A stretch of DNA of 64,000 bases, from the NCBI RefSeq assembly GCF_015645465.1, contig NZ_JADOEL010000004.1, positions 1-64,000 of the forward strand, in the 5' to 3' direction. Below, in pieces: positions 13,041 to 61,111 of this stretch. The notes beneath the pieces were generated by a model. The model saw only the letters and a list, made by a program, of their open reading frames with translations, was not told where the DNA came from and did not search any database. Position 1 is the first letter of the stretch. Each line of letters opens with the position of its first letter. The translations under genes were made by a program, and so were the position numbers. The DNA is from Herminiimonas contaminans. GTDB taxonomy: Bacteria; Pseudomonadota; Gammaproteobacteria; Burkholderiales; Burkholderiaceae_D.

Positions 13041-14875
13041 GTACAACGCAGGCCAAGAAAGCCATAGATCTGAATGCAGAAGTACGTGGCGAAGATATCT
13101 TTGCACGCTACGACAGTCGCGTCGTCAGCAGGTTGTGGGCTTATATACGTCCGCATCGCTGGGCACTGGTGGCGGTAGTTGTTACCGTTGCCTTGTTCAC
13201 CATCGTGCAAGTATTGATCCCGGTGACGGTGCGTTACGCGGTGGATAGTGCGGTCGGGAATGCGCAATTTGCGTTCAACACTATCCTGGCGGTATTCGTT
13301 TCGCTGATTATCCTGAACGCGGTATCCAATTTTTTCCAGGAGTGGGTAGCAGCGCGTCTGGCGCAAAGAGTGATCTTTGACCTGCGACGCGCCATGTTCA
13401 ATCACTTGCAACATGTGTCCCTATCCATCCTTGATCAGACACAGGTAGGGCGCCTGATGGCGCGCCTGCAGGGTGACGTCAACTCCTTGCAGGAGTTTAT
13501 GGAGACATCGGTATCCGCAGTCGGTGATTTCTTCCTGCTGATAGGTATCGTCGCCGTCTTGTTGCTGATGGACGTCAAATTGGGTTTGCTGACTTTGTGC
13601 GTGCTGCCCATGATGTTCCTGGTGCGCAAGATATGGCTGCCATGGGCGCGCAAGGCATTTACGCGTGCACGTGAGGCGTCATCCAGTGTGAACGCTGCGT
13701 TGGCGGAAAACATCAACGGCATACGCACGGTGCAGGAGAACCGTCGCGAGATCGTCAACTTCGAGCGCTACGATGTACGTGCGATAGAAAATTTGCAGGC
13801 GCAAATCGGTTCGTCGCGGGCATCGCAAGTCATGATGCCGACGGTAGATACATTGACTGGACTGGCAATGGCTATCGTCGTAGTAGTCGGTGGTTCATCC
13901 GTCGTATCGGGACAACTCGATGTCGGCGTCATGGTTGCCTTCATCTTTTGTGTACAACGCTTCTTTGATCCTATCCGCACGCTGACGATGCAATACACGG
14001 TGATGCAGCGCGCGATGGCATCCGGCCACCGTATCTTTGAAGTGCTGGATGTTGAAGTCACATTGAGTGACAAGGAAGACGCGCAGCAGTTGGCCGATGT
14101 GCCGCCAGCGATCGAGTTCAATCATGTGACTTTCGGCTATCGCCCGAATCAGCCTGTACTGCATGATCTCAACCTGCATATCCAGCCCTACCAGACAGTG
14201 GCATTAGTCGGCCCTACAGGTTCCGGAAAGACCAGTATCGCGGCCCTGATACATCGTTTCTACGATGTGTGGGATGGTGAAGTCAAAGTTGGCGGGCAGG
14301 ATGTGCGTGACCTGACATTGGACTCGCTGGGGCAGTGCGTCGGCATGGTGTTGCAGGAGCCTTTCCTCTTCAGCGGAACCATCGCGGACAATATGCGCTA
14401 CGGTTTGCAGTGGGCGACGCGGGCGCAGGTGATAGAAGCTGCAAAAGCCGTACGTGCACATGATTTCATCATGCGCCTGCCGGATGGTTACGACACCATG
14501 CTGGGCCAGCGCGGCCGCAATCTCTCTATTGGGCAACGCCAGTTGCTCAGCTTCGCACGTGCCTTGTTGGCGAAACCGAAGATCCTGATCCTGGATGAAG
14601 CGACCGCGAACATAGACAGCTTCACCGAACTGGAAATTCAGCGTGCCTTAAATGTATTACGCAAGGGGCGTACCACCATCATCATTGCGCACCGTCTGGC
14701 GACGATACGTGATGCAGATGTGATTGTGGTGCTGCAGAAAGGTCGCATCGTCGAAAAAGGTTCACACGATGAATTGCTGCTGAACAAAGGCTTGTACGCG
14801 AAGCTACATGCCAGCAGCAATGAGTCGTTTGACGACTTTGTTGAGGCTGAAGGTGAGCGGGTACCGAATAGTTGA
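13037..14875 (+). CDS. ABC exporter half-transporter (heterodimer partner 2)
   Basis: The 612-residue protein repeats the exporter layout: membrane domain about 35-320, ATPase about 355-595. Walker A GPTGSGKTS begins at 392, and Walker B keeps the catalytic glutamate (D520-E521, ILDEAT). The signature is altered to LSIGQ (496-500). Partner 1 has the reverse pattern, so the composite dimer has one consensus and one degenerate ATP site. It starts at a TTG overlapping the previous stop (TTGA), a sign of translational coupling. The product presumably works only as the heterodimer. The substrate (drug, lipid or peptide) is unknown. Confidence 0.9.
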   Translation: MSTTQAKKAIDLNAEVRGEDIFARYDSRVVSRLWAYIRPHRWALVAVVVTVALFTIVQVLIPVTVRYAVDSAVGNAQFAFNTILAVFVSLIILNAVSNFFQEWVAARLAQRVIFDLRRAMFNHLQHVSLSILDQTQVGRLMARLQGDVNSLQEFMETSVSAVGDFFLLIGIVAVLLLMDVKLGLLTLCVLPMMFLVRKIWLPWARKAFTRAREASSSVNAALAENINGIRTVQENRREIVNFERYDVRAIENLQAQIGSSRASQVMMPTVDTLTGLAMAIVVVVGGSSVVSGQLDVGVMVAFIFCVQRFFDPIRTLTMQYTVMQRAMASGHRIFEVLDVEVTLSDKEDAQQLADVPPAIEFNHVTFGYRPNQPVLHDLNLHIQPYQTVALVGPTGSGKTSIAALIHRFYDVWDGEVKVGGQDVRDLTLDSLGQCVGMVLQEPFLFSGTIADNMRYGLQWATRAQVIEAAKAVRAHDFIMRLPDGYDTMLGQRGRNLSIGQRQLLSFARALLAKPKILILDEATANIDSFTELEIQRALNVLRKGRTTIIIAHRLATIRDADVIVVLQKGRIVEKGSHDELLLNKGLYAKLHASSNESFDDFVEAEGERVPNS

Positions 14876-14888
14876 AGTGTGACGAATA

Positions 14889-14919
14889 AAGATGCGCCGG
14901 TTTAGTTCCAGCGCATCTT
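14889..14919. terminator. Hairpin between convergent genes
   Basis: AAGATGCGC (14889-14897) pairs with GCGCATCTT (14911-14919). It overlaps the last codons of the minus-strand YeeE gene. The minus-strand side is followed by a short T-rich TATTCG, so it may be a weak terminator for that operon. Confidence 0.45.
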
Positions 14920-16065
14920 CACTCTTAATTGCCACCCTATCCATAGCCCGCCGAACAGGAAGAGCGCAAAAATCCAGCCCGATGCCGCACCAGCTATAAT
15001 GCCGGACAACAAGGTACCGACCGTGCAACCCAGCGCCACCATGGAGCCCCATCCCATCAGGATGCCACCGGCAAATGCGCGGCCGATTTCAGCCAGCTTG
15101 GGACGACGCGGTTTAAAGTCACCGGCAGAGATAGCGGCGGCCAGTGATCCGAGGATCAGGCTGATGACGAACACACCGTTTTGCGACCACAGGGTTTCCT
15201 TGATGACGGTTGCGCAGCCGGAGAAGGTATCGACACCTTCCAGGCGCGCGGGCAACCAGGACAAGCTATTCGCTGCCGTACGTGCGATGCTGCCCAGCTC
15301 CGCCGTCACACCCAGTGGCCCGATGCGGAAGTAGGAGAGCACGCCGACAAATCCGATCAGCAAGCCACCCACATACGCGGGCCAGCGTCGTTCCCATCGA
15401 TTGCCGCTCCTTGCCTCTTGCGTTTTGTGCGCACGCCAGAGCCAGATCGCGAGTGCAGTCAATATCGAAAGTTGTAATACGACAGATCCTGCATAACCGA
15501 AATGATGTGGTAGCCAGACCACAGGTGCTTCCTGTATGCCGGACAGATACAACTTGTTCCAGCTGAGGAAGCCCAGTACGAAACCAAACAGCGCGCCAAG
15601 TAGTGCAAATGGCGAAACGGTCGAGCCTTCGCCCAGGCGATATAAATGTGCGCTGATGCATGAGCCAGAGAGTGCCATGCCTATGCCAAAGCTGAGTGCG
15701 CCTGCGGCCAGTACCCAGCTCACCGGACCGATATGCGCTTGTGGTGGCAAGCGACCGAGGGTAGGGATGGGCATGAATGCGCCGAAGACGAGGTGGTAGC
15801 CGAGTATGCCGACGACCAGTGCCACGATGATGCCGAGCAGGCCGCGTGCATCGCGTCGTTCTATGAAATCACGACTGACGCAAAAGAAACAGAAGCGCGA
15901 ACGCTGTAAGAAAATGCCAAATGCAAGACCCAACAAGGCAGACAGTGCCAGTTCGCGTCCACCCCCGGCGATGCTGCCGAGGGTATGTGAGAAGCAGACT
16001 GCTGCCGTCAGGATAATGACAGAAGGCAAAAGCCGCCGTAGCGGCGGCAATGCCAGATCAGCCAA
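14902..16065 (-). CDS. yeeE: YeeE/YedE-family thiosulfate permease
   Basis: YeeE (TsuA-type) proteins carry thiosulfate across the inner membrane through a line of conserved cysteines. This 387-residue protein has about ten membrane segments. It shows the conserved Cys motifs SGSCISAHLYR, FSGCATVIKE and VALGCTVGTLLSGI, the last being the GCT...SGI stretch seen in characterised family members. It begins at a TTG set immediately after the TAA of the exported rhodanese gene, with no spacer, so the two must be translated together. No TusA-like small protein accompanies it, which is the more usual partner. The thiosulfate substrate is inferred from family. Confidence 0.88.
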   Translation of the reverse strand: MADLALPPLRRLLPSVIILTAAVCFSHTLGSIAGGGRELALSALLGLAFGIFLQRSRFCFFCVSRDFIERRDARGLLGIIVALVVGILGYHLVFGAFMPIPTLGRLPPQAHIGPVSWVLAAGALSFGIGMALSGSCISAHLYRLGEGSTVSPFALLGALFGFVLGFLSWNKLYLSGIQEAPVVWLPHHFGYAGSVVLQLSILTALAIWLWRAHKTQEARSGNRWERRWPAYVGGLLIGFVGVLSYFRIGPLGVTAELGSIARTAANSLSWLPARLEGVDTFSGCATVIKETLWSQNGVFVISLILGSLAAAISAGDFKPRRPKLAEIGRAFAGGILMGWGSMVALGCTVGTLLSGIIAGAASGWIFALFLFGGLWIGWQLRVKMRWN

Positions 16066-16980
16066 TTATTTTCCGCCCCATACTGTGCCTGCCAGATTGG
16101 TAACCGGTACGCCTACTGCGTTGCCGTATTCAGTCCACGAGCCATCGTAGTTACGGACGTCGTAGCCGAGCAGTTTTTTCAGCGCGAACCAGGTGTGGCT
16201 GGAGCGCTCACCGATACGGCAGTAGGTGATGACTGGTTTGCTGCCATCGATGCCAGCTGCAGCATAGATTTTTTTCAGTTCATCGACCGATTTGAAAGTG
16301 CCGTCAGCCGCAACTGCCTGACCCCATGGCACGTTGGCTGCGCCAGGGATATGACCAGCGCGGATAGCGAGTTCCTGTACACCGGCAGGTGCGAAGACCT
16401 TGCCGCTGTATTCATCCGCCGAACGGATATCGACTAGCGCGACATTGCTTTTCTTTTCAGCTGATGCAACCACGTCGCTCAGGCGTGCGCGCAGTGCAGG
16501 ATTCGCTGCGCTGATTTTGATATTGCCAGCAGCAGGTACTTTGGTCACGGAGGCCAATGGACGATTTTCTGTTTCCCATTTCTTGCGGCCGCCATCCAGC
16601 AGTTTGACGTCCTTGACGCCATAGATGTCGAATACCCATGCGCCCCATGCCGCGAACCAGTTGTTGGTGTCACCGTAGAGGACGATGGTGCTGTCACTAT
16701 TGACGCCTGCGTTACGCAGCAATTTTTCAAAGTTTTGCTGGCTGGCGATGTCGCGACGTACTGTATCAACCAGGTCGGTATGCCACGAAAAATTCACCGC
16801 GCCAGGAATGTGCGCACGCTCGAATACGCCCGGATTGACGCTGACTTCGATCAGGCGCAATTTAGGGTTGTTGATGTTCTTTTCCAGCCAGTCGGTGCTG
16901 ACCAGGAAGTCGCTCGGTGCGGCATGTGCGCTACCAAGCAACAGGCTGCCTGCGATCAGCAGGGACTTGATGATCTTCAT
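16066..16980 (-). CDS. Exported thiosulfate sulfurtransferase (rhodanese)
   Basis: The enzyme moves sulfane sulfur from thiosulfate or mercaptopyruvate to an acceptor through a cysteine persulfide. The 304-residue precursor has a clear signal peptide (MKIIKSLLIAGSLLLGSAHA, then APSDF) and two rhodanese domains. The second domain carries the active-site loop CRIGERS with C254. The six-residue loop beginning CR fits a thiosulfate sulfurtransferase. A periplasmic location next to a thiosulfate permease suggests it handles thiosulfate before uptake. It is the first gene of the two-gene unit. The 500-base upstream region contains a structured repeat. Confidence 0.9.
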   Translation of the reverse strand: MKIIKSLLIAGSLLLGSAHAAPSDFLVSTDWLEKNINNPKLRLIEVSVNPGVFERAHIPGAVNFSWHTDLVDTVRRDIASQQNFEKLLRNAGVNSDSTIVLYGDTNNWFAAWGAWVFDIYGVKDVKLLDGGRKKWETENRPLASVTKVPAAGNIKISAANPALRARLSDVVASAEKKSNVALVDIRSADEYSGKVFAPAGVQELAIRAGHIPGAANVPWGQAVAADGTFKSVDELKKIYAAAGIDGSKPVITYCRIGERSSHTWFALKKLLGYDVRNYDGSWTEYGNAVGVPVTNLAGTVWGGK

Positions 16981-17481
16981 TTTGATTCTCCTCGGTTTGT
17001 TAAGAAAGCGTTACGTGGTCACATTACCGAAGAGATTGCTGACGAACAACGAAGCTTTTTCAATATCGTTATTCAGAAAATGCATGTGGAGGAACGGGTG
17101 TTAAATACCTTGTTGCTTAGCTAGTTAAGATAGCTAATGCCATACGTATTACTCTTGCGCGTGCGGTGCGTCGTGATGGTGATTTTTCTTCGTGGAGAAG
17201 TGGGTTGCCGGGGGTGGCCCGGCGGCCACTCACTTTTCTTGCTTCGCCAAGAAAAGTAAGCAAAAGAAGGCGACCACGGCGCCGCTGCTCCTGCGGGGTC
17301 CCCGTTTGTGCAGGACAAAAAATGGGAAGTGGACGAAACTCGCTGCGCTAACGCTACGCTCAGACAACGTCCACTTCTTTTTCCATTTTCTGTCCCGCAC
17401 AAACGGCATCGTCACAGTGGATAAGGTCTACAGCCTCTTTGCTTTTTCCTCAACAAGAAGTGCATCAGCCGCACTATGTAC
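16981..17481. other. Gene-free region between rhodanese and CysB-type genes
   Basis: The first 200 bases should hold the promoter of the minus-strand sulfurtransferase-permease unit. The remainder (about 17185-17410) is a structured repeat described separately. Short open frames in both directions across the repeat translate strings such as SKQKKATTAPLLLRG. I recognise these as the kind of spurious peptide annotated from this repeat in many beta- and gammaproteobacteria. No real gene is supported. Confidence 0.65.
17185..17410. repeat. Structured intergenic repeat (nested inverted repeats)
   Basis: Two hairpin modules are visible. The first is ACTTTTCTTG (17232-17241) pairing with CAAGAAAAGT (17248-17257). 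The second is a long interrupted palindrome: GTTTGTGC (17304-17311) with GCACAAAC (17397-17404), and inside it GAAGTGGACG (17326-17335) with CGTCCACTTC (17368-17377), with A-rich and T-rich stretches also matching. The architecture resembles a REP/BIME-type non-autonomous element. That it is dispersed in the genome is expected from experience with related genomes but cannot be shown here. Confidence 0.7.
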
Positions 17482-18396
17482 TTAAGCGCTTTTCAGATCT
17501 TCCAGCCGAAGATTAGGCGCGAACGTTTCCAGGAAGCGATAGGCGAACGACGGCAGGAACGTTCCATTGCGTACCGCAACCAAGGTGGTGCAGGAACCAA
17601 ATAATGTGCCCTCTGTTTCCAGTACAGTCAGTCCGCTTTTCTCTATCCCATCCAGCGCCATCTCGGCCACGATGCCGACACCGAGGCCGCGTTCGACGTA
17701 GGTCTTGATGACATCGGCATCCATCGCCGTCAGACGGAAGTCCGGTACCAGCCCGGCCTGGCTGAATGCTGCATCCACGCACTTGCGTCCGGTGAATTGC
17801 GGGTTGTAGGTGATGAGCGGATATTCGGCGATGTCTGCCAGCGTCACGGGTGTCTTCTTCACCAGCGGGTGATCCTGCGGCACGATGACCTGGTGGTTCC
17901 ATGAGAAGCATGGATAAGCCAGGATGTCAGGTGATTGATCGAGTACTTCGCTGGCGATGCCTATGTCTGCTTCGCCATTGCTGATCATCGCAGCGACCTG
18001 ATTTGGTGTGCCTTGATGCAGTTCGAGTTTGACTTTGGGGAATTCGTTGTTGAATTGCTCGACCACGCGTGGCAGCGTGTAGCGGGCCTGGGTATGGGTG
18101 GCGGCGATGATGAGCTGGCCTGTATCTACGCCTGAGTACTGGCTGGCATAGCGCCGCAGGTTTTCTGTTTCCAGCAGGATGCGCTTGACGATTTCCACTG
18201 CGCCGTCGCCAGCACGGGTAACCGATGTGAGTCGCTTGCCGGAGCGTACGAAGAGGTCTATACCCAGTTCATCTTCCAGATCCTTGATCTGTTTGCTCAC
18301 GCCGGATTGCGATGTATAGAGGACGGCAGCAACTTCGGTGAGATTGAGATTGTTGCGTATCGCTTCGCGTACGAATCGTAATTGCTGAAAATTCAT
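17482..18396 (-). CDS. cysB: CysB-type LysR-family regulator of sulfur assimilation
   Basis: CysB/Cbl proteins activate sulfate-starvation genes when N-acetylserine or related signals are present. The 304-residue protein starts with the typical MNFQQLRFVREAIRNNLNLT and the helix-turn-helix containing LYTSQSGVSKQIKDLEDELG. A LysR substrate-binding domain follows from about residue 90. Its family and its position between thiosulfate genes and the organosulfur operon suggest it controls both flanks. It may be the main CysB or a Cbl-like paralog; sequence alone does not settle this. It is transcribed away from the organosulfur operon across a 669-base gap. Confidence 0.85.
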   Translation of the reverse strand: MNFQQLRFVREAIRNNLNLTEVAAVLYTSQSGVSKQIKDLEDELGIDLFVRSGKRLTSVTRAGDGAVEIVKRILLETENLRRYASQYSGVDTGQLIIAATHTQARYTLPRVVEQFNNEFPKVKLELHQGTPNQVAAMISNGEADIGIASEVLDQSPDILAYPCFSWNHQVIVPQDHPLVKKTPVTLADIAEYPLITYNPQFTGRKCVDAAFSQAGLVPDFRLTAMDADVIKTYVERGLGVGIVAEMALDGIEKSGLTVLETEGTLFGSCTTLVAVRNGTFLPSFAYRFLETFAPNLRLEDLKSA

Positions 18397-19065
18397 GGAC
18401 TCTTTCCCTGTTAATACTGATCGCTTCCCTGCTCTGAACGAGATGCAAGGATGTGCTTTTTATTTTTTGCTGCTGTGGTCGGTAATTTATTTGCGGCTGG
18501 CAAGTAACAGATGCCCGAATTTTTAGCATAACGAGCTGGGCCTGATATGCGAACCAATTAAAAATGATTTGAATATTTCTGGCTGCGTTAAAGATATTCA
18601 GTATTTGCATGTAGCCAGCAAATGCGCGCGAACCTTATTGCATCGTCTGAACAGCTATGGATCGTTACCAGCTTGTGCTAATCATAGAAATACCAGGCTG
18701 CGTGTGGCAACGAATTTGTCCGTATATGGATATCTGAAGTTTGTTATGCCTATCCCGCATTTATAAGTACGAAATGCTTCGTTGGGGCGCGCTGAATCGC
18801 CGCTTAAGATGCAGATGCATCCTCCTCCAATACCTCTCATGATTGGATTTAACCCGCACCGCAAGGTCTGCGGGTTTCTTTTTTTATGACGTCAGTAAAC
18901 GTGTTTGCAGATGTGTTCGGAGGATCAAACGATATATCCAAACTTCTGCTAAAGATCGAATTTTTTATTGTTTGTGACGCGGCAGTGAAGGCGGTAACTT
19001 CTCAAAAAAATTAATCGTCTGTGCAGTCCGCATATCGCCAGACAGAGTATCGATAAGGAATGGAA
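18397..19065. other. Divergent regulatory region upstream of the organosulfur operon
   Basis: No protein gene is supported; a 65-codon frame at 18569-18766 looks random. The region must hold the promoter of the CysB-type gene and of the plus-strand operon. It contains possible stem-forming pairs (GAATAT/ATATTC around 18575-18605, GATGCA-GA-TGCATC near 18808-18821) and a plus-strand intrinsic terminator at 18851-18885 with no gene before it. A small RNA or an attenuated leader is therefore likely. Confidence 0.6.
18851..18885 (+). terminator. Orphan intrinsic terminator (small RNA end or attenuator)
   Basis: AACCCGCA (18851-18858) pairs with TGCGGGTT (18869-18876) around CCGCAAGGTC and is followed by TCTTTTTTT. 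It points along the plus strand. The only upstream gene, the CysB-type regulator, is on the other strand, so the terminated transcript must begin within about 450 bases. The terminator lies 180 bases before the next start codon, a spacing common for leader attenuators. Confidence 0.85.
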
Positions 19066-20451
19066 ATGGCATCGCCACCGCGTCAAATGAGCATAGGTAT
19101 GAACATCCTCGGCCTGGGAGGGCACGGGGCCGCGTGGCGTTTGGCCGAAGTCCCGAGCAACTCTTTGCTCGGTGTCGAGTACTTCCAGAACATTGCACGT
19201 ATCTCTGAGCGCGGCACGCTGGACGCGATCTTCCTGGCCGATGGCCCGGCACTGAACGGTAACGTCGCGACCAATCCGGTCGGTGGTCTCGAGCCCACCG
19301 TATTGTTGACAGCAGTTGCACTCGCGACCAAGTACATAGGTGTGATTGCCACCGCCTCCACGACTTACAACGACCCCTACAATCTGGCGCGCCGTATCGC
19401 TTCGCTGGATCACATCAGCGGCGGTCGTGCTGCATGGAATGTGGTGACCACCGCCGGTGACATCGCTGCACAGAATTTTGGATTGACCGGCGCACCCTTG
19501 CACCAGGATCGTTATGGCCGTGCAGCGGAGTTTCTCGATATCGCCATCAAGCTGTGGGATAGCTGGGAAGACGACGCGGTCATCAACGATTGGAAGAACG
19601 GTGTATTCGCTGATGCGAAAAAGGTACATACGATAGATCACGCAGGCGAACACTTCTCGGTACGCGGCCCGTTGAATGTACGACGTACACCACAAGGACG
19701 TCCGGTACTGGTACAAGCGGGTTCGTCGGAAGGCGGCAAATCGGTCGGTTCACGCTATGCCGATGCGATCTTCACCACTCAAACCACATTGGAAGATGGG
19801 CAAGCTTTTTATGCAGAGATGCGCAATCGCGCACGCGCATGGGGCCGCGATCCTGATTCCCTGAAGATCATGCCTGGTTTGTCCACCGTGATCGGCAGCA
19901 CCGAAGCGGAAGCACATGCGCGTTGCGATGAGCTCGATAGCTATCAGGGTGAGCTGGGTCTGGCCGGGCAAATCGCCGCGCGTATCGGCATTGCTGTCTC
20001 TGATCTCGATCTAGATGCGCCGTTGCCGTGGGATCGCATCATCGATGTGCGCGCAGCACAACGGGATGCAAATACCCGTGCGCTGGGTGGCGGTTCACAC
20101 GGATTCTTTGAGGCGCAGATCAATCTGGCACGACGTGAAAACCTGACCGTACGCCAGTTATCCAAACGCATACGCAGCGGCCATCGTCTCGCAGTCGGCA
20201 CGCCTGAGCAAATCGCCGATACTCTGGAAGAGTGGTTTAAATCCGGCGCGGCAGACGGCTTCAACATCATGCCGGACATGTTCCCATCCGGCGCTGAAAT
20301 CTTTGTCGATGAAGTAGTACCTCTCTTGCGTCGACGCGGCATCTTCCGTACCGAATACACCGGTACCACCTTGCGCCATCACCTCGGTCTGTCCCGCCCA
20401 AAAAGCCAATACGAAGACGAAGAGGACTGTGAGCGCCTGCTCGCCGTCTGA
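19066..20451 (+). CDS. LLM-class flavin monooxygenase, NtaA/SnaA/DszA family (second copy)
   Basis: This 461-residue FMNH2-dependent monooxygenase is of the same branch as the copy at 7119. It shows MNILGLGGHGAAWRL, LDAIFLADGPALNGN, LDHISGGRAAWNVVTTAG and VLVQAGSSEGGKSVGSRYADA. It opens the operon that also encodes the ABC importer, two TonB-dependent receptors and the DszC-like enzyme. It should oxidise the imported compound in the cytoplasm using FMNH2 from an external reductase. ATG 19066 is preferred over ATG 19060 because AAGGA at 19055-19059 abuts the latter. Dialkyl sulfone, sulfonate or aminocarboxylate substrates are all possible. Confidence 0.9.
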   Translation: MASPPRQMSIGMNILGLGGHGAAWRLAEVPSNSLLGVEYFQNIARISERGTLDAIFLADGPALNGNVATNPVGGLEPTVLLTAVALATKYIGVIATASTTYNDPYNLARRIASLDHISGGRAAWNVVTTAGDIAAQNFGLTGAPLHQDRYGRAAEFLDIAIKLWDSWEDDAVINDWKNGVFADAKKVHTIDHAGEHFSVRGPLNVRRTPQGRPVLVQAGSSEGGKSVGSRYADAIFTTQTTLEDGQAFYAEMRNRARAWGRDPDSLKIMPGLSTVIGSTEAEAHARCDELDSYQGELGLAGQIAARIGIAVSDLDLDAPLPWDRIIDVRAAQRDANTRALGGGSHGFFEAQINLARRENLTVRQLSKRIRSGHRLAVGTPEQIADTLEEWFKSGAADGFNIMPDMFPSGAEIFVDEVVPLLRRRGIFRTEYTGTTLRHHLGLSRPKSQYEDEEDCERLLAV

Positions 20452-21444: not shown

Positions 21445-23180
21445 CCAGCCAGCTGGAAAACGGACGTCGACCTTTGGTCGAAGTGGAGAATCTGCATGTC
21501 CAGTTTGGTCTTGGTGGTCCCGCTGTCATCAAAGGTATTTCATTTGCCTTGCATCGTGGCGAATGCCTGGCGCTGGTCGGTGAGTCCGGCTCCGGCAAGA
21601 GCGTGACTTCGCGCACACTGGTTGGTCTGACCGGCCATCGCAGTACCTTGCAGGCAGATCGCCTGAGCTTTGATGGCGATGATCTGCGCAAGTTTAATGA
21701 ACGCACCTGGCGCGATATACGCGGCCGTCGTATCGGCTTCGTGATGCAGGATGCACTTGGTTCTTTAGATCCGCTGCGCACAGTCGGTGCCGAAGTGGCT
21801 GAACCACTCAAGCTGCATGGCAAGTGGACCAGACAGGAGCGCGATGAAAAGGTAATCGCCTTGCTCCGCTCAGTCGGCATTCCTGAACCTGAATCCCGTT
21901 TGCTGCAATATCCGCATCAACTCTCTGGCGGCTTGCGCCAGCGCGCACTGATTGCTTCTGCAATTGCGTGCAATCCTGAACTCCTGATTGCCGACGAACC
22001 GACTACTGCACTGGATGCAGCGGTACAGGCACAGGTGCTGGATCTGCTGGAATCCTTGCGCACACCGGATAAAGCGATGCTGGTGGTGAGCCATGATTTT
22101 GCCGTGGTGTCACGACTGGCAGACCGCGTGGCGGTGATGTGGCATGGTGAAATCGTGGAGCAGGGGCCGCTCGATGCGATCCTGCATGATCCGCAACACC
22201 CGTATACAAAATCATTGTTGTCCGCCGTCTCATCGGTACAGCAACGCGGCCCGGCGCGACAGAAGATAGCGGTGGCCGATGACGGCCATCTGGCTACCTT
22301 GCCGACCGAACTGCCACCGGGCGTGATCAATACCAATCCGATCGCGGTAGAGGTGAATAACCTGACCAAGGTATTCTTCGCACCGGATGGCTCACGTCGC
22401 GTTGCGGTATCCGAGGTGTCGTTTGCCTTGCGCAAGGGTGAGACCGTCGGCATCGTCGGTGAATCCGGCTCCGGCAAGACCACACTGACGCGCATGGTAC
22501 TCGGGCTAGAAACGCCTAATGTCGGCAATGTCCGTCTGCGTGATCAGATCTGGAGTGAACTCAGCGACGCGCAACAACGCGCAGAACGCAAACGCATACA
22601 AGTGGTGTTCCAGGACCCGCTCAGCTCATTCGACCCACGCTACACGGTGGAGCGCGTGTTGTTTGAAGCGCTCGGTGTAGCTGGCTATACCAATGTGGCG
22701 GAGACACGTGCACGCGCGATAGAACTGCTGCAGCTGGTACGTCTCGATCCAAGCTTCCTGCAACGCCGTCCTATCGAACTATCCGGTGGTCAGCGTCAGC
22801 GCATAGCGATAGCCCGTGCGCTGGCACCTGAACCGGAAGTGCTGATTTGCGATGAGCCCGTCTCTGCACTCGATGTGTCGGTGCAGGCACAAATCCTTGA
22901 TTTGCTGATCGACCTGAAAGATCGCCTCGGCCTGTCCTGTCTCTTCATCTCACATGACCTCGGCGTCATCTACCGCGTCAGCGATCGCATCCTGGTGATG
23001 AAAGATGGTGTGGTGGTCGAATCTGGCGGCGTCCGTGAGGTATTTGAAAATCCGCAGCACGTTTATACGCAGACGTTGCTGAGTGCCATCCCGCAACTGG
23101 GACAAAGAAAACGCGTAGCTGAGTCAACTGATATCGGGAGTAGGGAAAGTGAAAAAGAAGGTGAGCTGGATGCAGCGTAA
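21441..23180 (+). CDS. Fused double ATPase of the Dpp/Opp-type importer (DppD-DppF-like)
   Basis: The 579-residue protein joins two ABC ATPase domains that are often separate genes. Domain 1 (about 8-255) has Walker A GESGSGKSV, signature LSGGLRQRAL and Walker B LLIADEPTTALD. Domain 2 (about 295-550) has GESGSGKTT, LSGGQRQRIA and VLICDEPVSALD. Both sites look competent. GsiA and YejF are known fusions of this kind. It overlaps the permease by ATGA. Its 3' end overlaps the receptor gene's GTG start by 32 bases, unusual for two unrelated gene products and a sign of tight coupling. Confidence 0.92.
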   Translation: MTSQLENGRRPLVEVENLHVQFGLGGPAVIKGISFALHRGECLALVGESGSGKSVTSRTLVGLTGHRSTLQADRLSFDGDDLRKFNERTWRDIRGRRIGFVMQDALGSLDPLRTVGAEVAEPLKLHGKWTRQERDEKVIALLRSVGIPEPESRLLQYPHQLSGGLRQRALIASAIACNPELLIADEPTTALDAAVQAQVLDLLESLRTPDKAMLVVSHDFAVVSRLADRVAVMWHGEIVEQGPLDAILHDPQHPYTKSLLSAVSSVQQRGPARQKIAVADDGHLATLPTELPPGVINTNPIAVEVNNLTKVFFAPDGSRRVAVSEVSFALRKGETVGIVGESGSGKTTLTRMVLGLETPNVGNVRLRDQIWSELSDAQQRAERKRIQVVFQDPLSSFDPRYTVERVLFEALGVAGYTNVAETRARAIELLQLVRLDPSFLQRRPIELSGGQRQRIAIARALAPEPEVLICDEPVSALDVSVQAQILDLLIDLKDRLGLSCLFISHDLGVIYRVSDRILVMKDGVVVESGGVREVFENPQHVYTQTLLSAIPQLGQRKRVAESTDIGSRESEKEGELDAA

Positions 23181-25308
23181 TGCCAGGCAAATAAATTCGA
23201 CCGCGATTACACGCGCCACCTTGTTGCGTACGCTCGGCGTCGGTGCTGCATTGTGCCTGTCCGGTGGCATCGCCGGCGCACAGGAAGCTGCACCGCAGGT
23301 AGAGGAAACCGTAGTCATCAAGGCGAAGGCACTAAAGGAAGCGGAAAGGGCGAAGGAACGGCTGAAGAATGTTGCCGGTACCGCCAGTGTCGTGAATAAC
23401 GCTGAAGTCGAACGTGGTCGTGCGCAGAATGCGGAAGATGTACTCGCGTATCAGCCAGGCGTGTTCGCGGCTGCAACCAGTGGTACAGGTGCCAACAAAA
23501 TCTCTATCCGCGGTTCCGGTCTCAATTCCTTTTATCAAGGCTATTCGCTTGGTATCAAATATTTGTTTGATGGCTTGCCTATCACCGGGCCGGGCGGGAC
23601 GCAGGAAGATTTCCTGACGCTGACCGGCGTTGATTACACCGAAATCCTGAATGGTGCGAATGCCTTCGCCTACTCGGCGCTCTCGCTCGGTGGTGCAATC
23701 AACTTTGTCACACATACAGGACGCAGCGCACCAGGGAATTCCATCAGCGTGGAAGCAGGCAGCTTTGGTTATCGCAAATACCAGGCCAGCACCGGTGGTG
23801 TGTCGTCTTCCGGCGATACTGATTACTACCTGCAGTACACGCACAACCAGCGTGACGGTTTCCAGCGTAATAGCCCAAACTCCGGCGAAGACTACATCTT
23901 CAATCTCGGCCATAAATTCAATGATCGTCTGGAAACAAGACTGGTCATCCGCCATCGCGGTGAAGAGCTGCGCAACGGCAGCACATTGACACTGGCGCAA
24001 CTCGAAGCGGATCCGCGCAACAGCACATCAACCGCATCGGCGCGTCGCAAGAAAGGCACGACACTGGTCACCAGCAGGACCACGCTTACGCTGGATGACA
24101 AGTCGAAGCTTGAACTGGGCTTCGCCTATAACGACTATCCGCTGGATAACGGCTGGATCTATTCCGATCAACCGGGCATCTGGCGTTCGAAAGACTTCAC
24201 TACCTCGCTGCGCTATTTGCGTACCGGCGATACCTTGTTTGGCAAGCTCAGCGATACCACGGTCAGCTTCAGCGATACGCGTTTGCTGGATGGTGACGTG
24301 ACCGGTTACAACCAGGTGAATGGCGTGCGCACCAGTGAGCGCCAGTACACCAAGTACAGCGGCTCACGCGACACGGTGCTGTCGGTCAGCAATGCGCTGC
24401 ATCTGAATGAGCAGACCACCTTAAGCAGCGGATTGTCCTTGATTGAAATCGGACGCAATGTACGTATCGAGCGTTCGACCTTGCCAGCCAGCGCTTTGCC
24501 TTTCCCTCGTGCGGTGGAGTATACGGACAGGTCGCTGGCGCCGCGGCTGGGCTTGTTGTATCAGGCGACTCCCACTTTGCAGGTATTCGGTAATGTGTCG
24601 CGCTCGGTGGATCCGCCGGTAACCTGGCAAATGGCGAGTACCGGCGTTTCATACGTCCGTCCTTTGCGACCACAAAAAGCGAATACAGCAGAAATCGGTT
24701 TGCGTGCCAGCAGCGAAAACCACGATGGCAGCGTGACCCTGTATCGCTCCTATGTCAGTGATGAATTGCTCACATCGATTGCCAGTCCGGCGGTCGGTGC
24801 GACCCCCGCATTGGTCGCGAATACCAATGCCAGCAAAACCATACACCAGGGTATAGAAGCAGCGCTGACTTCCAAGTTGTGGAAGAACAATAGCGGTGAT
24901 CGCCTCAGTTATCGCCAGGCGTATACCTTTAACGATTTCTACTATCGCAACGATCAGCGGTACGGCCAGAACGAATTGCCTAGCTTGCCGCGTCATGTGT
25001 ATCAGGGTGAGCTGTTGTTTCAGCAGGCGGGCGGGTTCTATTCAGGTGTGAATGTACGTGCCATGTCCGGTTACTACGTCGACTATGCAAACACCTGGAG
25101 AGCACCATCGGCAGTGATCTGGGGTGCCAAGTTCGGTTACGAAGAGCCGGGCAAGAAATGGAAGGCTTATCTCGATTTTCGCAATATCGGCGACAAGCAT
25201 TATGCCGCCGCAGCGAACACCACGGATAACGCGAGAGGACTGGATACACCCAACTTCTACCCGGGTGACGGCTTCTCCATCTATAGCGGCGTGACCTATC
25301 GCTTCTAA
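23149..25308 (+). CDS. TonB-dependent outer-membrane receptor (first of tandem pair)
   Basis: The 719-residue protein has a signal sequence ending IAGA-QEAA, then a likely TonB box EETVVIKAK, a plug domain (about 65-180, with ISIRGSG and GANAFAYSALSLGGAINF) and a 22-strand barrel ending in YRF. Such receptors import scarce large ligands using TonB energy. Its place inside an operon with monooxygenases and an importer points to uptake of the compound they process rather than iron. The start is uncertain: GTG 23149 overlaps the ATPase gene, while ATG 23170 would nearly remove the overlap and still leave a signal peptide. Confidence 0.9.
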   Translation: MKKKVSWMQRNARQINSTAITRATLLRTLGVGAALCLSGGIAGAQEAAPQVEETVVIKAKALKEAERAKERLKNVAGTASVVNNAEVERGRAQNAEDVLAYQPGVFAAATSGTGANKISIRGSGLNSFYQGYSLGIKYLFDGLPITGPGGTQEDFLTLTGVDYTEILNGANAFAYSALSLGGAINFVTHTGRSAPGNSISVEAGSFGYRKYQASTGGVSSSGDTDYYLQYTHNQRDGFQRNSPNSGEDYIFNLGHKFNDRLETRLVIRHRGEELRNGSTLTLAQLEADPRNSTSTASARRKKGTTLVTSRTTLTLDDKSKLELGFAYNDYPLDNGWIYSDQPGIWRSKDFTTSLRYLRTGDTLFGKLSDTTVSFSDTRLLDGDVTGYNQVNGVRTSERQYTKYSGSRDTVLSVSNALHLNEQTTLSSGLSLIEIGRNVRIERSTLPASALPFPRAVEYTDRSLAPRLGLLYQATPTLQVFGNVSRSVDPPVTWQMASTGVSYVRPLRPQKANTAEIGLRASSENHDGSVTLYRSYVSDELLTSIASPAVGATPALVANTNASKTIHQGIEAALTSKLWKNNSGDRLSYRQAYTFNDFYYRNDQRYGQNELPSLPRHVYQGELLFQQAGGFYSGVNVRAMSGYYVDYANTWRAPSAVIWGAKFGYEEPGKKWKAYLDFRNIGDKHYAAAANTTDNARGLDTPNFYPGDGFSIYSGVTYRF

Positions 25309-25523: not shown

Positions 25524-27674
25524 TTGAAACACGCACTTCCTCCATCCCGGATTACTTCGCGCCTGGTGGCTTCGGTCTTCCCACGCGGGCAACGTTCCAA
25601 ACTATTGCATGCCACCGTCCTGTTCTGGCTCGCCAGCGGCCTGGTGTATGCGCAAGAAGCAACGACGCAGGTTGAAGATACCGTCGTCATCAAAGGCAAG
25701 GCGCTGTCCACCACAGAGAAAGCCAAAGTGAAGCTGGAGAATGTGACCGGCAACGTCAGCGTGGTGAAAAACGCAGATGTGGAAAAAGGCCGCTCCTCTA
25801 CGCTGGAAGACGTGCTGGCTTTCGAGCCGGGCGTGTTCGCGCAAGCTACCGGCGGTAATGATGCGATCAAGATTTCGATACGCGGCTCCGGTATTGCGAC
25901 TGCTGCCGGTGTGTTCCGCGAAGGTACTTCATTCCTGTTTGACGGCCTGGCGCTGACCGGCTCCGGTGGTACACCTTATGAATTGCTGGAAATGTCGGGC
26001 ATCGATTACACCGAAGTGTTGCGCGGTGCGAATGCTTTCCAGTATGGCGCCTTGGCTTTGGGTGGTGCGCTGAATCTGGCGACGCATACCGGACGTACTT
26101 CGCCGGGCGTGTACGGACGATTTGAAGCAGGTAGTTTCGGCTGGCGCAAACAGCAGTTGAGCGTAGGCGGTGTAACGGAATCAGGAGATACCGATTACTA
26201 CGTCAGCGTGACCAATTCCGAACGCCGTGGCTATCAGAAATGGACCAACGTGGAATCCAAGGGCATCGTCGGTAACTTCGGTTTCCGCCTGACGCCGCAA
26301 TTGGAAACACGTCTCTACCTGCGTTACCGCGAGGAGTATCACCAAAATCCTGCACTGCTCACACTGGCCCAGCTAAAGGCAGATAGCAGCCAGACCACGG
26401 CAGCGACCGTGACTGGCCGCAATGACGGCACCAAGCCTGGTTCGACTTACGTCGGTAGCAAAACCACTTATACGATAGATGATGTATCAAAAATTGAATT
26501 CGGTCTCGCGTATCACGACTATCCGCAAATCCTGAATATCAATAGTGCGGCGACACCTAACTTCTGGACCTGGCGCGACATCAATGCTTCGTTGCGCTAT
26601 CTGCGTAGTGAGCAATTGTTTGGTTTGCAAAGCGATACCACCGTCAGTTTCACCCGTACGCAAGCGATCAACTCCAGCGTAAAAACATACAACGGCACTA
26701 CGCGCGCGCTGAAGAAGTACGCGACGTATGACGGCTCGTCCGATACGGTGCTGGCAGTCGGCAACGAGTTGCAACTGAATCCACGTACCTGGTTGTCCTC
26801 CGGTTTGTCGCTGGTGAATGTACGGCGTGATGTGCGTACGCTATACGGTGATATCCCGGTCAATAACGCAGCGACGACCTACAACCATCAGGACCTGGCG
26901 CCGCGCCTCGGCTTGCGCTATGAGCTGGCACCGAAAGTGGTGGCCTTTGCCAACGTCAGCCGCTCCATCGATCCGCCTGTGACCTGGGGCTTTACCGGTT
27001 CCGGCACCACTGCCACACAGATCGGAGTGAAGAATCTGACCGAGCAAAAAGCGAATACTGTTGAAATCGGTTTGCGCGGCAGCAATGACACCTTCAGCGG
27101 TAGCGTTGCGCTGTATCGCTCCGAAGTCCGCAATGAACTCCTGACCGCACAAATCCCGGGTGGCGGCCCGACCGATACCGAGAAGCGTAACGCTACGCCG
27201 ACCGTACACCAGGGTCTGGAAGCAGGTCTGGATGCGCGTCTGTGGAAAGGCAAGGGCGGTGACAACGTCGTCTTGCGCCAGGCCTATACCTATAACGACT
27301 TCCACTACAAGAAAGATCCGGTCTACGGTGCCAACGAATTGCCTGGCCTGCCTAAGCATGTCTACACGGCGGAACTGCAATATCAGCATCCGAGCGGTTT
27401 CTACGTCGGTGTGAATGCACGTTACTCGGCGAAAACCTGGCTGGACTATGCCAACTCGCTGGCAGCACCGAGCTACACCATCTTTGGTGCCAAGGTCGGC
27501 TATGAACAGCCGGGTGGCAAGTGGAGCCTGTTCCTCGATCTGCGCAACCTGACCGACAAGGCGTATGCCTCGGCGATCAGTCCGCAGTACAACTTGCGCG
27601 GTCTGGATAACACCGGTGCCGTGTATGTCGGTGATGGCTTCGGTGCATTTGCCGGTGCGTCTTACCGTTTTTAA
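25524..27674 (+). CDS. TonB-dependent outer-membrane receptor (second of tandem pair)
   Basis: The 716-residue receptor starts at TTG 25524 behind TAAGGGG. It has a signal sequence ending LVYA-QEATT, a TonB box EDTVVIKGK, a plug with KISIRGSG and GANAFQYGALALGGALNL, and a barrel ending in YRF. It is a clear paralog of the preceding receptor: FANVSRSIDPPVTW matches FGNVSRSVDPPVTW and VHQGLEAGLDARLWKG matches IHQGIEAALTSKLWKN at the same relative places. Divergence is spread through the extracellular loop regions, so the two may prefer different but related ligands. It sits 37 bases before the binding-protein gene. Confidence 0.92.
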   Translation: MKHALPPSRITSRLVASVFPRGQRSKLLHATVLFWLASGLVYAQEATTQVEDTVVIKGKALSTTEKAKVKLENVTGNVSVVKNADVEKGRSSTLEDVLAFEPGVFAQATGGNDAIKISIRGSGIATAAGVFREGTSFLFDGLALTGSGGTPYELLEMSGIDYTEVLRGANAFQYGALALGGALNLATHTGRTSPGVYGRFEAGSFGWRKQQLSVGGVTESGDTDYYVSVTNSERRGYQKWTNVESKGIVGNFGFRLTPQLETRLYLRYREEYHQNPALLTLAQLKADSSQTTAATVTGRNDGTKPGSTYVGSKTTYTIDDVSKIEFGLAYHDYPQILNINSAATPNFWTWRDINASLRYLRSEQLFGLQSDTTVSFTRTQAINSSVKTYNGTTRALKKYATYDGSSDTVLAVGNELQLNPRTWLSSGLSLVNVRRDVRTLYGDIPVNNAATTYNHQDLAPRLGLRYELAPKVVAFANVSRSIDPPVTWGFTGSGTTATQIGVKNLTEQKANTVEIGLRGSNDTFSGSVALYRSEVRNELLTAQIPGGGPTDTEKRNATPTVHQGLEAGLDARLWKGKGGDNVVLRQAYTYNDFHYKKDPVYGANELPGLPKHVYTAELQYQHPSGFYVGVNARYSAKTWLDYANSLAAPSYTIFGAKVGYEQPGGKWSLFLDLRNLTDKAYASAISPQYNLRGLDNTGAVYVGDGFGAFAGASYRF

Positions 27675-61083: not shown

Positions 61084-61111
61084 AAAAAAGGCACCCGAAG
61101 GTGCCTTTTTT
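61084..61111. terminator. Bidirectional terminator after the first porin
   Basis: AAAAAAGGCACC (61084-61095) and GGTGCCTTTTTT (61100-61111) are perfectly complementary around CGAA, a stable tetraloop. The minus-strand porin ends 36 bases away. Only the minus strand has a gene entering it. Confidence 0.92.

Follow-up and report, generated by a model that had tools for sequence, protein, structure and literature searches.

A probable RF02278-like small RNA encoded divergently from a CysB-type regulator gene in Herminiimonas contaminans

The LysR-type regulator GcvA controls the divergently placed small RNA (sRNA) GcvB. Another group of bacterial sRNAs, family RF02278, is said to owe its name, Betaproteobacteria toxic sRNA, to Kimelman et al. 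in 2012. In Burkholderia cenocepacia four RF02278 RNAs are expressed and overexpression of one of them attenuated growth, and a common upstream motif of the family is mentioned in the same source (PMC5688073). Growth inhibition upon overexpression has been reported for family members in two papers (PMC5688073, PMC4603805). For S17, an RNA related to RF02278, Hfq dependence, repression of a target by pairing and complementarity to ribosome sites were shown, and no growth inhibition was seen in exponential phase (PMC11722255). Some sRNAs, of whatever family, are reported at higher levels when cysB is mutated in Burkholderia pyrrocinia (PMC10179380). In the open-licence PMC literature, we found no paper that connects RF02278 RNAs with CysB or with control by sulfur, and none that reports an sRNA of this kind from Herminiimonas.

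Here, we analyzed a 64,000-nt stretch of Herminiimonas contaminans DNA (NZ_JADOEL010000004.1; hereafter the window), in which a 663-nt intergenic region (18397-19059) lies between a minus-strand CysB-family LysR gene and a plus-strand operon beginning with an LLM monooxygenase gene. The features of this region are shown in Table 1; the anatomy, homology, synteny and conservation of the RNA described below were determined computationally. An earlier note on the same DNA had pointed to a strong plus-strand intrinsic terminator in this region, preceded by several kilobases devoid of plus-strand genes, and both statements were confirmed. The terminator reads AACCCGCA-CCGCAAGGTC-TGCGGGTT at 18851-18876, after which TCTTTTTTT extends to about 18887. 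When strict criteria were applied to the intergenic region (perfect stem, 7 bp or longer, with at least 4 G/C, loop of 3-12 nt and 7 T in 9), the site was found, and any equally strict site appeared in only 1 of 500 dinucleotide shuffles. A looser consensus scan also lists it, and with 21 sites per 14 kb against 12.1 expected that scan is by itself little proof. The nearest plus-strand gene on the 5' side, encoding an ABC exporter, ends at 14875, and the three genes recognised in 14902-18396 are all on the minus strand; on the 3' side, about 175 nt separate the terminator from the LLM start (19060). A terminator also occupies the corresponding position in four orthologous loci (G011, G002, G001 and Oxalicibacterium flavum). 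Elsewhere in the window, a strong stem at 61086-61109 with T-runs on both strands forms a bidirectional terminator. We consider it likely that the intergenic terminator ends an independent, trans-acting sRNA of about 70 nt, which has diverged from RF02278 and is encoded divergently from the CysB-type LysR gene.

Table 1. Features of the regulator-sRNA-LLM region, with positions in the window
Feature	Position	Strand	Basis
CysB-family LysR-type regulator	17482-18396	-	NF009327 406.6 bits (cut-off 402); PF00126, PF03466
Predicted regulator promoter TTGCCA-N18-TATGAT	18681-18710	-	Both hexamers invariant in 4 genomes
Operator-like block between divergent promoters, candidate LysR/CysB-type binding site	18711-18739	.	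27/29 invariant
Conserved block, imperfect dyad ACGAA-N4-TTCGT ending in the -35	18759-18785	+	23/27 invariant; possible activator site
Predicted -35 TTGGGG (TTGG invariant) of small RNA	18782-18787	+	17 nt 5' of the -10; weak consensus match
Predicted -10 TAAGAT (TAGGAT in G001) of small RNA	18805-18810	+	5/6 invariant; weak consensus match
Predicted RF02278-like small RNA, ~70 nt	18816-18887	+	5' end inferred from the -10; RF02278 match 18819-18883
CU-rich 5' stretch AUCCUCCUCCAA, putative seed 1, complementary to ribosome-binding sites	18819-18830	+	Alignment A2; unpaired in predicted fold to 18825
Hairpin 1 (UCCAAU/AUUGGA), CU-rich loop ACCUCUCAUG = putative seed 2	18826-18847	+	Alignment, predicted fold
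Intrinsic terminator, RNA hairpin 2	18851-18887	+	8-bp perfect stem, 10-nt loop, T-run
Conserved LLM-operon element AACGATAT ... GATCGAATTTTTTATTGTTTGTGAC	18928-18978	+	3' of terminator; alignment of window, G011, G002, O. flavum
NtaA/DmoA-family FMN monooxygenase (LLM), first operon gene, outside the RNA unit	19060-20451	+	TIGR03860 505.1 bits (cut-off 279.7)

The relation to RF02278 emerged from a low-threshold Rfam covariance search of 18390-19070, an analysis that had been proposed earlier. Its best match was a sub-threshold but significant one to RF02278 over the full length of the model (41.7 bits, E 5.9e-7), followed by anti-hemB (E 0.41). The curated RF02278 cut-off of 50 bits was reached neither at the window locus nor in its orthologues (G011 34, G002 34 and G001 31 bits; O. 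flavum 21.1 bits, E 0.077, where several other Rfam families score equally or better). Judged from these scores, the window element is a diverged relative of RF02278 that lies below membership by the cut-off. No RNA class had been recognised previously because nothing in the window reaches curated Rfam cut-offs (0 families in a scan of its whole length). Three other RF02278 copies in the same genome are above the cut-off (70.4, 67.4 and 58.7 bits). Two of these three stand in tandem about 220 bp apart (G000:C7:99781-99843 and 99998-100062, L073), and pairs some 200-220 bp apart are also present in several genus genomes. At E<=0.001, matches to RF02278 were identified in 161 of 196 relatives, 134 of them above the cut-off and with 1 to 21 matches each, and in none of 14 control genomes; at a lax E<=1, 11 of the 14 controls also give matches, none above the cut-off. 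At the DNA level, a search with 18630-18890 matched 15 of 100 genomes (own included), three congeneric ones over 204-230 nt and the remaining ones over the RNA core only. Homology of this core reaches other genera, with a best match of 87% over 62 nt (E 3.2e-12). The unpaired CUCCUC(C) 5' stretch and the CU-rich first loop are present in the window, G011 and G002. In G001 (L004, G001:C1:2141114-2141317) the CUCCUCC stretch is lost or replaced, with hairpins and upstream blocks kept, a change that represents either decay or retargeting.

The fold obtained for the predicted 72-nt RNA (-18.5 kcal/mol, z -2.64; none of 200 shuffles equally good) shows the structure characteristic of RF02278, two hairpins of which the terminal one is an intrinsic terminator. 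The corresponding z values are -1.78 in G011, -2.11 in G002, -2.80 in G001 and -2.55 in O. flavum, the predicted 5' fold of the last differing from that of the window; two canonical RF02278 copies give -5.92 and -3.84. An alignment for covarying stems, also suggested by the earlier note, was built from 38 sequences comprising the window, orthologues and paralogues (A2). Outside it were L015, which has no seed; L001 and L022, which are the window itself; L023-L026, which are chance-level matches (E 0.36-0.81); and extra copies of included types (L031, L034, L036, L038, L039, L040, L042, L044, L049, L052 and L053). In the A2 helices 95.9% of 493 cells are paired, 67 cells are changed on both sides as against 24.7 in shuffles, and the covariation score is 0.352 as against 0.124 for shuffled and at most 0.076 for slid versions. 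On the other hand, two of the five measures fail to beat the shuffles: pairs with double changes (6 vs 5.1, with 116 of 500 shuffles reaching 6) and further pair types (13 vs 15.0). It should be noted that the structure tested on A2 was derived from A2 and that the sequences are related; the alignment supports the family fold rather than proving the fold of the window copy.

Upstream conservation was counted as positions invariant across the window, G011, G002 and G001. Apart from the blocks in Table 1, such positions amount to 9/19 in 18740-18758, 2/19 in 18786-18804, 5/11 in 18811-18821, 20/27 in seed plus hairpin 1 and 22/26 in the terminator stem-loop. By its pattern, the unconserved stretch of 17-19 nt between the kept TTGG and TARGAT looks like a promoter spacer, which would place the start near 18816 and hence give a transcript of some 70 nt, similar in size to the family RNAs already known. 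It is possible that 18759-18785, with TATAAG at 18762-18767, is an alternative promoter that would produce an RNA of about 115 nt. This longer RNA folds at shuffle level (113 nt, z -1.00; 116 nt, z -1.10) and conservation is lowest in its 5' part, so the start near 18816 is preferred. For the divergent regulator promoter, the -10 region 18676-18691 is invariant at 16/16 positions and the -35 at 18705-18710 at 6/6; its O. flavum counterpart is TTGTCA-N18-TATGAT, and the operator-like block is recognisable in that genome as well. In a promoter scan of 14 kb the regulator promoter is 1 site listed against 9.0 in shuffles, so that the scan alone is no evidence, and no plus-strand promoter is listed, the small-RNA hexamers included.

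The distribution of the element among genomes was compared with that of its neighbours. Of 13 genus genomes, 5 contain a regulator orthologue of at least 85% identity, and the remaining 8 have only paralogues of 48-52% and no DNA match to the RNA region; at that level, the regulator occurs in 8 of 294 genomes of the family at large. All five genus genomes with the regulator have the RNA element divergent from it, weak in the fifth, O. flavum. Searches with model R1 gave 69.9, 68.5, 68.5, 54.4 and 24.7 bits for these elements; four of these copies belonged to the training set of R1, which makes their scores circular, and the independent copy is that of O. flavum (24.7 bits, E 0.0042, 905 kb searched). 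On the regulator side, the LysR gene is followed on its 3' side by genes for a rhodanese and a YeeE/TsuA-type sulfur transporter, likewise on the minus strand. G001 keeps these two and the regulator, the gene after the RNA there is a convergent glpK (glycerol kinase), and the LLM operon was not found in 19 kb around the element. Since G001 keeps RNA and regulator in this way, the element, as far as gene order tells, follows the regulator and not the LLM operon. A back-to-back LysR gene and predicted sRNA gene, with a conserved block between their predicted promoters, were thus found together at this locus. Two more CysB-family regulators are encoded in the same genome (G000:C1:46555-47457, 52% identity; G000:C5:142620-143507, 48%). 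In Noviherbaspirillum pedocola, a weak R1 match (L078:8569-8647, 21.8 bits, E 0.023) lies about 2.7 kb from a CysB-type gene.

We propose that the sRNA would be transcribed from TTGGNN-N17-TARGAT and that two CU-rich segments, UCCUCCUCC at the 5' end and the loop of hairpin 1 (CCUCUC), would stay free for pairing. By analogy with S17 of Bordetella pertussis, it might block, together with Hfq, the Shine-Dalgarno regions of target mRNAs; an hfq gene is present in the genome (PF17209, 103.1 bits). The divergent CysB-type regulator would control the sRNA through the conserved operator-like block between the two promoters. Because the divergent genes share this block, such control may well exist, and from the arrangement and the conserved blocks we would regard it as about equally probable as its absence. 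A sulfur signal for the sRNA is suggested by the type of regulator. With regard to possible targets, the reverse complement of the seed region occurs with up to 2 mismatches at 31 places in the genome (itself included) compared with 6 for a backward control. No gene start was verified at the three one-mismatch places inspected, and a duplex scan of the 46 ORF starts in the window, run without a control, gave no clear target. Overall, the genome-wide and window searches yielded no usable target.

The most serious competitor is that the sRNA is constitutive or under other control and that its adjacency to the CysB-type gene reflects shared ancestry rather than regulation, to which we assign a probability only somewhat short of one half. 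The pairing is confined to one lineage, with the element adjoining the regulator in at least 2 of the 80 named CysB-type loci listed (L075, L076), and the three regulator orthologues outside the genus gave no R1 match within the stretch examined. In addition, visual inspection shows the operator-like block ahead of the orthologous regulator gene in Pseudoduganella lurida, where the RNA is absent, so it may serve the regulator alone. However, the dyad block directly 5' of the predicted -35 is kept equally strongly, and in 5/5 genus genomes the RNA goes with the regulator rather than with the LLM genes, both of which are more in line with regulation.

It is unlikely that the element is a degenerate remnant, a family copy in decay with a terminator that does no more than shield the LLM operon from upstream or antisense transcription. 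The RF02278 scores below the cut-off, the loss of the seed in G001 and the weak fold z values in G011 and G002 agree with such decay, whereas in the four genomes conservation of the RNA core and the upstream blocks far exceeds that of the -35/-10 spacer.

The earlier note had left two readings of the terminator side by side, the end of a small RNA or an attenuated operon leader, and had thought of a leader sensing a sulfur metabolite. The small RNA is the reading that gained support, given the relation to RF02278, the three further copies in the genome, the covarying hairpins and the conserved hexamers. The terminator probably does not attenuate the LLM operon, and a riboswitch or attenuator in a 5' leader, with a sulfur metabolite choosing between termination and readthrough, appears improbable, slightly more so than a remnant. 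The layout does suit it: the organosulfur gene 3' of the terminator is co-directional, the spacing is 177 nt in both G011 and G002, an LLM gene follows in O. flavum too, and the sequence is compatible with readthrough. Against this, neither the curated cut-offs nor the low-threshold matches yielded a riboswitch class, the best leader-type match being Trp_leader at chance level (15.1 bits, E 3.9), and the family that was matched is trans-acting. Were transcription to begin 5' of it, the stretch 18786-18804, with its 2/19 invariant positions in four genomes, would be a poorly kept leader. A co-directional gene does not follow every conserved element either: LLM does so in the window, G011, G002 and O. 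flavum, and attenuation fails in G001, where the search of 19 kb revealed no LLM gene and the element is followed by a convergent gene. Furthermore, the LLM operon has a conserved element of its own 3' of the terminator. On sequence grounds, 18928-18978 is likely to be the operon's own promoter or activator region, and it is possible that the CysB-type regulator binds there; a similar stretch was seen by eye before a TonB receptor gene of P. lurida, where the RNA is absent. The idea of a sulfur-metabolite-sensing leader is accordingly not supported, with no riboswitch class in the matches and the element retained in G001, and the link to sulfur would now run only through the neighbouring CysB-type regulator. 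The operon annotation is corrected to the effect that terminator 18851-18887 is probably not an LLM control element. Genes for a permease, an ATP-binding protein and TonB-dependent receptors come after the LLM monooxygenase gene. The receptor-like genes stand in tandem behind the organosulfur transporter genes at 23149-25308 and 25524-27674 of the window, and in G011 at least three such genes follow one another.

Least probable is a translated leader, in which a short peptide (MQMHPPPIPL...) over the RNA would link ribosome movement to termination: its frame is open for 26 codons from 18809 in the window and open in G011 and G002, and a possible small ORF is mentioned for S17 too (PMC11722255), yet the frame lacks a Shine-Dalgarno sequence and clustered Cys or Met codons, its ATG overlaps the predicted -10, and both frame and start are gone in G001.

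Returning to the independent sRNA, a broader scenario can be put forward tentatively, with somewhat less than even confidence: the Herminiimonas/Oxalicibacterium lineage would have placed an RF02278 copy under a CysB-type regulator, creating a sulfur-starvation unit resembling GcvA-GcvB. The regulator would turn on organosulfur genes directly and, via the sRNA, turn down other transporters or enzymes, and the seed exchange in G001 would be a natural retargeting. RF02278-type RNAs are present in most of the relatives searched, often in many copies, and the distinction between copies is poorly known. A copy tied to one regulator of known type offers a definite, testable signal, namely sulfur supply, and the locus could help to show how different copies of a single anti-Shine-Dalgarno RNA gain separate inputs and targets.

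Compared with GcvA-GcvB, the likeness is a LysR-type gene and an sRNA gene lying back to back; the regulator is of another type here, the RNA is unrelated, and regulation of the sRNA is a proposal. S17 of B. pertussis, compared here by its published description, is likewise related to RF02278, has a short form of about 67 nt, and is itself Hfq-dependent and blocks ribosome-binding sites, whereas it is released by RNase E from a precursor of 190 nt, depends on BvgA and is located between a glycosyltransferase gene and coq7 (PMC11722255). The locus also resembles the double-hairpin RNAs of RF02278 (ncS03, ncS05, ncS27 and ncS62 of B. cenocepacia), which likewise consist of two hairpins, the second an intrinsic terminator, and have CU-rich anti-Shine-Dalgarno sequence both at the 5' end and within the first loop. 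In size, the approximately 70 nt predicted here can be set against about 57-92 nt for the B. cenocepacia RNAs (PMC5688073). A -10-like sequence (TANNNT) lies 11-20 nt 5' of the seed in 36 of 45 RF02278 loci, counted without a shuffle control, and 17 nt 5' of it here. Many RF02278 copies (L019-L055) have, by eye, a palindrome-like box ATAWCNGWTAT together with AAANNGAAATTGG about 40-60 nt 5' of the -10. The ATAWCNGWTAT box of the above-cut-off copies is absent at the corresponding place of the window locus. Finally, the locus differs from the RF02278 RNAs in having GCAUCCUCCUCC where the family has UGUCUCCUCC, and in its upstream region, which is a different conserved block held in common with the divergent CysB-type gene.
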